Shown piece after piece: positions 5,842 to 11,704 of a stretch of 64,000 nt of DNA. The position numbers were made by a program, and so were the translations under genes. The notes under the pieces are model-generated. The model worked only from the letters and a program-made list of their open reading frames with translations. It was not told the DNA's origin and made no database searches. This DNA is from Zingiber officinale (taxonomy: Eukaryota > Streptophyta > Magnoliopsida > Zingiberales > Zingiberaceae), in contig NC_056003.1 of assembly GCF_018446385.1 (NCBI RefSeq), positions 22,007,198 to 22,071,197 of the forward strand, given 5' to 3'. Within the stretch, counting starts at the first letter, position 1, and each line of letters begins with the position of its first letter.

Positions 5842-6497
5842 CACTACAACAAAAACTCTCATAGACATTGGTGGAACAACAACAATTTTAAGCAAAAACC
5901 GATGTCTTTGAGTATTTTACACCGGTTTTTCCAAAAATCGGTGTCTATGAGCGCAGATTTTCGCTCATAGACATCGGTTTTTTAGGCGATGTCTATGAGC
6001 GCCTTTTTTTTCGTTAATAGACACCGATTTTTACATCGGTTTTTTAAAACCCGATGTCTATGAACCAAAATAAAATAATATAACTTTTCCACCAATACTT
6101 AGCCAAAATTTGCAACACTTCACTCTTCCCTCCAAACCTAAACCTATATCGCGTCGTCCACACCAAACCTACTCCGCCGTCTGCTATCGCCACCACCATA
6201 TACAATCGCGATGCCACCACCACTCTCCTCCTCTCCGCCAGTTGTCCAACCATCTCTCTCAGCCTCATCTCCCTCTTCCCCTTTCTAGATCGACGCCCCT
6301 TCCTCTCCCAATCGGGATCGACGCACGACGCCCCTGCTGCTCCGTCCTACCACACCGCATCTCCTCCACCTCCTCCCTTTGGGTGAGAAGAGGAGCCCTT
6401 CTTCGCATTTCGAGAAAGGAGAGGTGACGAGTTGGTCTTGCTTTCTAGGGTTTTGTTGTCGTCGGATCTTAGAGTAGTAGCAGCGGAGGGAGGCAAG

Positions 6498-6575
6498 ATG
6501 AAGACAACCAAAGGGGAAAAGGTGATGAACCCCACTGATGCCTACCGGAAGGAGATACGGAAGGAGGTCAAATGG
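6498..6575 (+). pseudogene. Captured first exon of a WBP11-like splicing factor
   Basis: ATG at 6498 opens a 26-residue exon containing KVMNPTDAYRKE, which matches the conserved N terminus of WW-domain-binding protein 11 (MxTTKGGKxMNPTDAYRKExRKKELKRNKK as remembered). It ends at TGG followed by GTAAG at 6576. After RKE the usual lysine-rich continuation is missing. The upstream 350 bases look like a 5' UTR and may have been captured too. No other WBP11 exon follows, so this is a fragment inside the CACTA element and not a working gene. It could supply a promoter or first exon to downstream sequence. Confidence 0.72.
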
Positions 6576-6643
6576 GTAAGAAACACGAACTCTTTGGTTC
6601 CATTTCCGCTAGTTCATTCTTGACCTCAGGGTCTCCCTTCCTT

Positions 6644-6732
6644 GTAAAGTTGCACGCTGAATGTCATTATTGTGATGATCTCCTCGCTCCAGTTGACCTC
6701 GCTACGCTCGGCGATTTGTTTTTGGGGAAAAG
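6644..6732 (+). pseudogene. Possible additional captured exon, unrecognised
   Basis: One frame reads KLHAECHYCDDLLAPVDLAT followed by LGDLFLGKR and ends at a good donor (AAAAG, GTGAGC at 6733). The stretch has protein-like composition and sits between the WBP11-like exon and the LOG gene. I do not recognise the family. It may be an exon fragment of another host gene or only chance. Confidence 0.25.
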
Positions 6733-7007
6733 GTGAGCCTCATCTGTGATAAGATAATCGGCGTTAGGGTTCTTGAGAATACTATATGTGTCAGCAGTTG
6801 TTTTCCTTTTTACTTGTATCCAACAGGTGGCGGGTGCCAATCTAGCTAGGAAGCTTTTTAGGGTTTTTTTTTTTAAACCGGTGTTTCCTGCTCTGGAGTA
6901 ACAAGGAGCGGGTCAATGGCAGACGAGAGAGAGTTGTTGGGTTCTCTCGTAGCTCTGGACTACAAAAGGAGGAGGAACGTTTGGATTTGCTTCTCTGAGA
7001 ATTGTAG

Positions 7008-8653: not shown

Positions 8654-9584
8654 CTATATCTAGGGATCAAATTCGTTTGTTGTTGTTTTCAATAAGTTTC
8701 AGTATCACATATTATTCTTTCCTTCAGTCTGTTTCTGGGGAACCTCATGGCTCTAAAAGTTTTTCATCAAGAATTGCAATCCCTTGTGACATTCTCAGTA
8801 AATGCAATATCAGTGTCTTATTATTATTGCAAGAAATGATCAAAATTTGTTTCTCCATTTGATCTTGTCCTCATGGATAGGGTGTTCTAAATTGGATAAA
8901 ACTATGATGCTTTTGGAAAAGCAGTCTATAAAGCAACAGTGGATGTGTAAACATGTTTCCCTTCTAACTTTTGATGATCTGAAGAGTTAAAATTGAACAG
9001 CTCTACTGGAGCATGTTATTATTAGTTTAGTCTCATTAATTATTGCATGTTATTTTAAGGACGCTTACCAATTAAAATTGCCAACTGCTGGCTGAATTGG
9101 TATTCTTCAACAATGAAGCATTACTTTTTATTATTGCACTATCATAATAAAAACAACTCGTTAAGAAAAAAAACAATAATAATAGGGCAATATTTGTGAG
9201 GTCTTTTGAACATTGTTATTTAGTATGAGCATTTGTCTAATAAAAAAGTATGATATAACTAACAAGATATAATATTTGTGGATATTTAAAAAGACGGATT
9301 AAGAAATAGTTATCTTAATCACAGTGAGCTCAGTGGGGTCGAATATTTGGATCAGGCCTATAAGCAGCATTAGATAATCACTATCTGCATACATCATCAT
9401 TGAACGAATCTGTAATGTCCAATGGGTGTGTATGTTTTGAAATATTCATTCCTTGGATATACCGAACTATCATATCACCTTCACAAGTATGGAAAATACA
9501 CTTGCTAGATTTAAATACAGAATGGTTTCTGCATGTCCGTGAGATGAAAAAAAAAGTGTGTTTACTATTTAATATTCTCTTCAG
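8654..9584. other. CACTA interior, no gene seen
   Basis: AT-rich DNA between the LOG stop codon and the captured reductase exon. It probably includes the LOG 3' flank. Short frames here show no family resemblance. Confidence 0.6.
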
Positions 9585-9667
9585 GGAGGTATGGACGATT
9601 GGAAGAAGTTGCAGGCCTTGTGGAGTTCTTGGCCCTTAGTCCTACATCGAGTTACATTACTGGGCAG
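9585..9667 (+). pseudogene. Captured exon of plastid 3-oxoacyl-ACP reductase (FabG/KAR)
   Basis: Between an AG acceptor (TTCAG, 9580-9584) and a donor (GTAATA, 9668) one frame reads [19 protein letters not shown] and then TSSYITGQ. This matches the near-C-terminal segment of FabG-type short-chain reductases, [29 protein letters not shown], which is normally followed by VFTIDGGM. That last exon is not found next to it. Only this one exon is present, at 83 bp, with intact splice sites. It is therefore a captured gene fragment within the CACTA element and could be spliced into a chimeric transcript. Confidence 0.8.
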
Positions 9668-11040
9668 GTAATAATATGGAGAGGTTCATAAGATCAGGAT
9701 AGTGATCTTCTAACCCCGATTACCTTTCATCTTTAAAATTGTACTGATTAAGTACTTACTGTAAGTCGTAGATAAGTACTGATTAATTAAATTAGTCACA
9801 TGGCTATAGGGGAAATTTTCTTGTATTTAATTTTTCAACTTTTATTTTGTTCTCCATTCATCAAATTATCAATAATATGACATTGATTACATATTCATTT
9901 AAATAATTTTATGCAACTGAATTTCATAAAATTTATATTACAAGAATAATCAGTTTATCAATGTGATAACAACCAAGATCATGGTATAAAAATGTTATCA
10001 ATATTATATAGAGTCTAACAAGTAATGGTATATGAAATCTAACACTTGTTACATCAATCTATCTGATTAACCCTTTTTTGAATCCAAATTCAGCCTTAAA
10101 TAAAAAAAGATGAAAAATCACCCAGCTCAACGGTAACCGTTGTATCAATTCACTAGCAAGAAAAATTTCTCCCAACAGGACTTCATTACTTACTAAACCA
10201 TGATTTTATGGAATTTATATAGAAATCGCAAAAAAGAAACACACTGAATCATAGTGAGGAAATGATCAGATTGATCCCTAATCTTATCCCTAGCCGATCA
10301 TTAAACATTAAATGTGTGGGAATTTACTATAATCTACTCCTACATGAAGCAAATGAATAAAAACTACAAGTAAAGTTTACCTACCCTGTTATGACTTCAG
10401 AAGAACATGCTGAATTTTCCATGTATGCTGGCCTTTAATATAGAGGGCTACAAGAGGATTATATCTTAGGTCAAGACACTCCAAATCCATCATAAACCAA
10501 AGGGAAAATAGTTTATACTTACTAGAGGATTGAATGGACCCAAAAGGAAGCTCTAACTTGCTGTTTTGGGTGCTGAACTAAGGAGGCAGCTGCCTTCTTG
10601 TCGCATTCCTTGCTGCTGTGGTTGGTAGCAGAAATCACAGAAAATAGGGGGCTTAGTGCAGGATATTCAGGATACCAAGATGACATCAGAGGTAGTACAA
10701 TAAATAGTATATCTCTTCATCAGAGGTAGCTTTGTTCTTCTATGCTTCCGTCACTGATTTGTTGTGTAGTCATATTTCTTTGTTTAACCATTATCATGCC
10801 TAGTAAGTTGTTGTATGATGTTGTCGGTTCTTATCAATCTGTACACTTGAATTAAGAGCAAATTATCTATGTTATATTCTAAGCAGCATATACTAAGTGT
10901 CATATATGAAAGTTTTAGATTCTATGTTATATTCGTTATCTTCCACAGCAGCCTTTAAAAACTCAGTATTCTATTTTATTTGATACATGTACACATTTGT
11001 TTTAGTTATTTGACATATGGTGGATTTATGTGTTTTTACA
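9668..11040. other. CACTA interior, no gene seen
   Basis: About 1.4 kb of AT-rich DNA with no reading frame of note. I see no transposase motif and no further host exon that I can name. Confidence 0.6.
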
Positions 11041-11130
11041 GTTTACAAATCTCAAGTACTCCAGAGTTGAAATTGATGAAGTGCGGTTCGAGTGGGCTGA
11101 ATGCATGCTAGATTACATTTGAAGTGCGGT
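11041..11130 (+). other. Exon-like piece near the CACTA 3' end
   Basis: After a pyrimidine-rich acceptor (TTTTTACAG) one frame reads FTNLKYSRVEIDEVRFEWAE and CMLDYI, then stops at 11120-11122. It could act as a terminal exon for transcripts running through the element, for example from the reductase exon whose phase it would fit. I cannot assign it to a family. Confidence 0.25.
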
Positions 11131-11704
11131 TCTACCTTGATGTGTTAAAAGAATGTTCTACCTTGATTTTGATATCTATTAGCTAGCTTTTGATGTAAAA
11201 AGAATGTTTGGGTATTTTATGGATACTCTTGTAAGAAGATTATTTATATAATTTGTGAATATTTGTGTATTTTATGGATATTGTTGAATGAAGAATATTT
11301 GTATAATTTGTGAATATTTGTGTATTTTTTTTATTATTGTCGGTTTTTCATTGTTTCGGAAATAAAATTTGTGTTGTTAAAAAATATACATATTACATCG
11401 ATTTTCCACCGTTGCAAGACCGGTGTTATTAACTAATATTACATCGGTCATTTACCGCTGCCAAAACTGGTGTTATTAACATACAATATTACATCGGTTT
11501 TACACCGTTGATGAAATGGTGTCGTTAAGTGATACTACACCGGTTAATAACCGATTCGAAGACCGGTGTCGTTAAGTGATACTACACCGGTTTTAACCCG
11601 ATGTCTAAAATGGCAGACTTTTAACATCGGCTTCATAGACATCGGTCGAAAATGAAATAGACACCGGTGGAAAACCGATGTCTATGAGGGTTTTTGTTGT
11701 AGTG

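Follow-up and report, generated by a model that had tools for sequence, protein, structure and literature searches.

This locus raises the question of whether a gene of the LOG family was carried here whole, inside a CACTA transposon, and, if so, whether it is a working gene or a passenger. LOG enzymes convert cytokinin riboside 5'-monophosphates into free cytokinin. The window, i.e., the whole stretch of DNA analysed, is 64 kb long. Members of the CACTA superfamily have CACTA termini in inverted repeats, a 3-bp target site duplication, and subterminal repeat arrays. All three traits were found in the element, which is delimited as follows:

5839..5841, no strand: left target site duplication, AAT, directly abutting the left end
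5842-11704: CACTA element of 5863 bp, a single unit between matched ends
5842..5871, plus strand: left terminal inverted repeat, beginning CACTACAACAAAAAC, matched to the right end in a scan of the whole window
5859..6063, no strand: left subterminal motif array, ACCGATGTCTATGA and its inverse, six matches by motif count
11386..11687, no strand: right subterminal repeats, from repeat comparison and motif count
11675..11704, minus strand: right terminal inverted repeat, an inverted copy of the left end
11705..11707, no strand: right target site duplication, AAT, directly abutting the right end

An earlier note on this DNA had reported matched CACTA ends, AAT duplications, and subterminal arrays belonging to one insertion, and each of these observations was reproduced. 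Recomputation gave the same 28 identical bases out of 30 (92% over 36 nt when flanking bases are included). The best inverted partner of the left 30 bases in the 64-kb scan was the right end itself, at 11675 with 2 mismatches, which argues for one insertion rather than the ends of two. The second best match lay within the element's own left end (9 mismatches), and the best one beyond the element borders had 11. AAT would flank both ends with a chance of 1/64 at equal base frequencies. The 14-base motif ACCGATGTCTATGA, counted with at most 2 mismatches, displayed 8 matches in the window against 0.33 expected, of which six are at the left end, two at the right end, and none elsewhere. Ends, duplication, and motif arrays agree and give good support to the insertion of one 5863-bp unit. 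Self-comparison of the window yielded no repeats of at least 40 nt involving the element at E <= 1e-6, and its terminal pattern had 0 matches in viral_contigs.

The surroundings contain other mobile DNA and several host genes. Two copies of about 1 kb (1-1176 and 3763-4820) are 93-95% identical in two aligned pieces, and probably represent the long terminal repeats of a retrotransposon starting before the window. A second CACTACAAC occurs at 5824-5832, 18 bp before the left end of the element, perhaps as a relic end, perhaps by chance. On the other side, shortly after the right end, 12003-12260 matches Pfam Plant_tran (E 9e-12) and is what remains of a plant transposase, of Harbinger type. Within 53401-53531, CACTACAA occurs three times at intervals of about 62 bp (53401, 53463, and 53524), forming a short repeat apparently unrelated to the element ends. 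The host genes recognised through Pfam, which together with the transposase remnant suggest a flowering plant as the source of the DNA, were:

26066-29212: VPS15-like gene
36551-37579: gene of a CAF1-family nuclease
45145-49082: STICHEL-like gene
60292-60648: gene of a NifU-domain protein

The LOG gene lies in the left half of the element, preceded by a short open reading frame:

6916..7011, plus strand: upstream open reading frame of 31 codons, sharing its last 4 nt with the start of LOG exon 1
7008..7127, plus strand: LOG exon 1, with the ATG at 7008 and a second in-frame ATG at 7017
7223..7320, plus strand: LOG exon 2, from the spliced reading frame
7403..7433, plus strand: LOG exon 3, from the spliced reading frame
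7804..7903, plus strand: LOG exon 4, holding Arg101
7988..8058, plus strand: LOG exon 5, holding GGYGTMEE and Glu124
8134..8277, plus strand: LOG exon 6, from the spliced reading frame
8591..8653, plus strand: LOG exon 7, ending in the stop

The seven exons (7008-8653) make up a coding sequence of 627 nt, which encodes 208 amino acids without an internal stop, and all six introns begin with GT and end with AG. Both Arg101 and Glu124, presumably the catalytic residues, are present. The GGYGTMEE of exon 5 corresponds to the PGGxGTxxE motif of LOG enzymes; the captured protein thus displays both the motif and the arginine by which these enzymes are recognised. The seven-exon structure described in the earlier note therefore stands as to splice dinucleotides, frame, and both residues, with the qualification that two of the six donors, GTACTC and GTACTA, are ones that we regard as weak against the consensus. 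Together with the upstream reading frame over the start codon, these donors could lower the expression of the captured gene.

Homology searches agreed on the identity of the protein. Pfam Lysine_decarbox matched it over 131 of 131 model positions (E 3.5e-45), and the NCBIfam model TIGR00730 scored above its cut-off over 178 of 178 positions. The NCBIfam LOG equivalog NF058542, from a library that serves bacterial and archaeal annotation, gave 122.9 bits, below its cut-off of 300 bits. The nearest of 16 PDB sequences was Arabidopsis At5g11950 (1ydh, E 5.5e-98), which we take to be LOG8. The two proteins share the conserved motif and 145 of 202 aligned residues; At5g11950 is a host gene, whereas the captured LOG sits in a transposon. 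Their alignment stops at residue 204 of the 216 of At5g11950, with the captured protein ending one residue further, so that the latter is about 11 residues shorter at its C-terminus. This shortfall lies outside the Pfam domain. The tail is highly variable, and loss through a frameshift in the captured copy is one possible reading of its absence. Judged by its frame, splice dinucleotides, and conserved residues, the captured gene can encode a complete LOG-type protein.

LOG appears to share the element with pieces of other genes:

6073..6497, plus strand: GC-/CT-rich segment 5' of the WBP11-like ATG, a candidate captured promoter or 5'UTR by position and composition
6498..6575, plus strand: 26-codon stretch, likely the first coding exon of a WBP11-like gene, with the donor GTAAGA at 6576
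9585..9667, plus strand: likely lone exon of a 3-ketoacyl-ACP reductase (KAR/FabG) gene, with a CAG acceptor and a GTAATA donor
11042..11122, plus strand: possible terminal coding exon, 26 amino acids and a stop, with an ACAG acceptor, proposed from the sequence

The first coding exon, 6498-6575, is likely the captured start of a WBP11-like gene. It matched Pfam Wbp11 over 16 residues (E 0.0025; 18.6 bits, below the curated cut-off of 24.3), with E 0.13 in the whole-frame Pfam scan, and matched the WW domain-binding protein 11 chain 7abf_X with E 0.096. The GC content of 6073-6575 is 0.525. The short exon at 9585-9667 is likely a captured piece of a ketoacyl-ACP reductase gene. Its top match among the 26 PDB sequences listed was the ketoacyl reductase 1edo (E 5.4e-8), presumably the plastid-type enzyme from Brassica. 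Pfam adh_short_C2 matched with E 0.00048, below the cut-off, and several SDR models of NCBIfam matched about equally, all far below theirs. Weak matches of this peptide to pentatricopeptide-repeat proteins in the PDB search, and a weak minus-strand match to Pfam Glyco_transf_61 (E 0.12), were taken as chance. The peptide of 11042..11122 resembles the C-terminal end of the Ulp1-type reading frames of plant transposons. It had no Pfam match, and across all six reading frames of the window its motif occurs once. For grapevine, the available part of PMC2528002 describes CACTA families that have ULP domains.

The gene content of the element bears on what the earlier note had claimed, namely a complete LOG gene inside a CACTA transposon. 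The uninterrupted coding sequence with its introns was upheld, but LOG is not the sole cargo, since two other gene pieces accompany it. When all six frames were scanned with Pfam at E <= 1, no transposase domain was detected in the element, which thus combines host coding sequence with the absence of this domain, as expected of a Pack-CACTA. Elements of this kind are reportedly the subject of Catoni 2019. Since the WBP11-like and reductase-like pieces accompany LOG and no transposase was found, the element falls within a known kind, the multi-gene Pack-CACTA. We consider it very probable, from the sequence of this single locus, that this is a non-autonomous Pack-CACTA with parts of seemingly three unrelated host genes, inserted as one unit. 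The same data speak against a resident host LOG that came to lie between two unrelated CACTA ends. For this we found nothing in favour, and it is hard to reconcile with ends that match at 28 of 30 bases, AAT on both sides, ACCGATGTCTATGA matches confined to the two ends within the window, and pieces of other genes between those ends. We regard a resident gene as highly improbable.

Whether the copy is under constraint was approached through its substitutions. With LOG3 as outgroup, residues 9-205 displayed 19 lineage-specific changes in the captured LOG against 9 in LOG8 (p = 0.087), and narrower stretches gave 17 against 8 (p = 0.11) and 13 against 7 (p = 0.26), in a comparison that rests on these three sequences. 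The excess hints at relaxed constraint but is not significant, and species divergence may lie behind part of it.

For conservation, and for this only, we used 23 relatives identified among 95 candidate stretches in genome_contigs, all from bacterial records; in viral_contigs there were none, as the 5 pattern-matched stretches encode no relative. One alignment of the captured protein took in 13 of the 23. At 52 sites LOG8, LOG3, and two bacterial proteins all have the same residue, and the captured LOG keeps 50 of these. Two bacterial segments that contain stops, L009 and L023, were dropped from the threshold counts (n=21) and retained in the per-site counts (n=23). Among the 21, departures of the captured LOG, LOG8, and LOG3 numbered 11, 14, and 11 in columns at least 70% conserved (70 columns), 5, 7, and 6 at 80% or more (55 columns), and 2, 3, and 2 at 90% or more (35 columns). 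When L009 and L023 were retained with X, 32 columns reached 90% and the three proteins departed at 3 each. Residue 24 of the captured protein is Asp, and Gly in LOG8, LOG3, and 18 of 23 bacterial relatives. These counts suggest that the conserved core has been kept about equally to that of the two Arabidopsis LOG proteins.

In a neutral simulation (3000 trials per point, assuming 0.12 indels per substitution, of which 80% shift the frame), 35% of captured copies stayed intact at 1% divergence, 11% at 2%, and 4% at 3%. Intactness thus points to either youth or selection and does not separate the two. The four host ORFs compared have CpG ratios of 0.25, 0.29, 0.37, and 0.99; that of the LOG coding sequence is 0.65.

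With the insertion of one unit taken as given, the intact LOG lends itself to opposing readings. One is that it is intact through recent capture, in an element that either is methylated and makes no enzyme or gives rise to small RNAs lowering the parent LOG. Young age alone would suffice for this, given the share of neutral copies intact at 1% divergence. A coding sequence less CpG-poor than three of the four host ORFs also fits little methylation-driven decay, in a comparison that does not include the ratio of the parent. For transposed gene fragments in maize, the available text of PMC3547793 reports a negative correlation with the full-length parent transcript in 20 of "the other 25 examples". 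Expression is, however, compatible with all present data, and on wheat chromosome 3B 38 (26%) of the genes captured by CACTA elements are transcribed, according to the accessible portion of PMC4290129. We give this reading somewhat less than an even chance. The other reading is that the mobile LOG is expressed and retained for its enzyme activity. The intact frame, splice sites, and core are what it predicts, and the same portion of the wheat study lists 19 captured genes (13%) that are expressed with dN/dS below 0.4 (PMC4290129). The larger number of lineage-specific changes in the captured LOG than in LOG8 and the two weak donors argue against it, and we hold such a selected, active gene to be unlikely. 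We lean, tentatively, towards a passenger that is young and mostly silent rather than an active gene under selection.

How such an element could have formed and how it might work can be outlined as follows. It would have taken up the start of a WBP11-like gene, the whole LOG8-type coding region with introns, and one ketoacyl-ACP-reductase-like exon, and it would then have inserted as one unit, in keeping with its ends and target duplication. With no transposase domain inside the element, the transposase would presumably be supplied from elsewhere. If the LOG copy is transcribed, the transcript might begin within the WBP11-like 5' segment; the WBP11-like exon would then be spliced in frame onto LOG exon 1, or the ATG of LOG itself would be used. 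A working product would convert cytokinin riboside 5'-monophosphates into free cytokinin. Joining the WBP11-like donor at 6576 to the LOG exon 1 acceptor ending at 7007 keeps the frame, as one in three joins would by chance. A rival acceptor ending at 6826 has 15 pyrimidines in 20, against 12 in 20 at the exon 1 acceptor. Since in-frame joining is possible, the captured 5' segment could act as promoter source for LOG and even provide it with a fused N-terminus. A bolder proposal is a mobile, rewired LOG, in which the LOG8 copy is driven from the WBP11-like 5' end and may be fused to it in frame, with ectopic cytokinin activation wherever the element inserts. We consider this rather improbable.

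Whichever reading applies, the locus offers a clear and testable example of a transposon with a complete gene for a hormone-activation enzyme beside the apparent 5' end of another gene. If the gene is expressed, plants with and without the element would differ in cytokinin activation, which could plausibly give rise to heritable variation in growth. If it is silent, young captured genes may pass for real genes in annotation.

The earlier note had called a complete gene in a Pack-type element unusual, a claim that is weakened by the wheat data. In the accessible portion of that study, 140 CACTA capture events on chromosome 3B comprise 145 genes, of which 46% have a likely functional structure and 17 potentially arose from exon shuffling (PMC4290129). 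Yet captured genes are shorter on average than others (CDS of 488 vs 1,090 bp), and the authors' discussion holds that most are fragments. The wheat captures are genes between two pieces of one CACTA family, with target duplications checked by hand; the difference here is that the captured gene is a LOG. Pack-CACTA elements are described in Arabidopsis and maize in the available text of PMC8903248, where those of maize are multi-gene chimeras, as the element here appears to be. It differs from them in that one captured gene has its introns and the whole of its coding sequence. As far as their available texts go, the wheat study already provides cases of likely functional genes carried by CACTA elements, and PMC9289625 cases of a LOG domain carried by plant transposons. 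In the literature searched by title and start of abstract, which most subscription papers lie outside, we found no report of a CACTA element that contains a LOG gene, and in the available text of an eggplant LOG paper (PMC11226868) CACTA appears solely in a reference title. A complete, intron-containing LOG within a CACTA is thus a combination for which we found no precedent in that literature.

Two known systems come closest. Soybean Tgm-Express1, as presented in the available part of PMC1947982, is a 5.7-kb CACTA inside intron 2 of F3H, with exonic and intronic parts of five genes and chimeric spliced transcripts. It carries fragments, whereas the element here carries a complete LOG coding sequence. 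According to the available part of PMC9289625, consensus sequences of LTR retrotransposons from Citrus sinensis and C. clementina contain a LOG-type (YgdH) domain, and so do those from Populus trichocarpa, where it was detected with a filter disabled. These cases share with ours a LOG-family domain inside a plant transposable element, and LOG may have been captured by such elements more than once; that it is a recurrent cargo from which they profit is a more speculative extension, as improbable as the rewired LOG above. They are, however, retrotransposon consensus sequences with a domain, while here a CACTA element holds an intron-containing gene.
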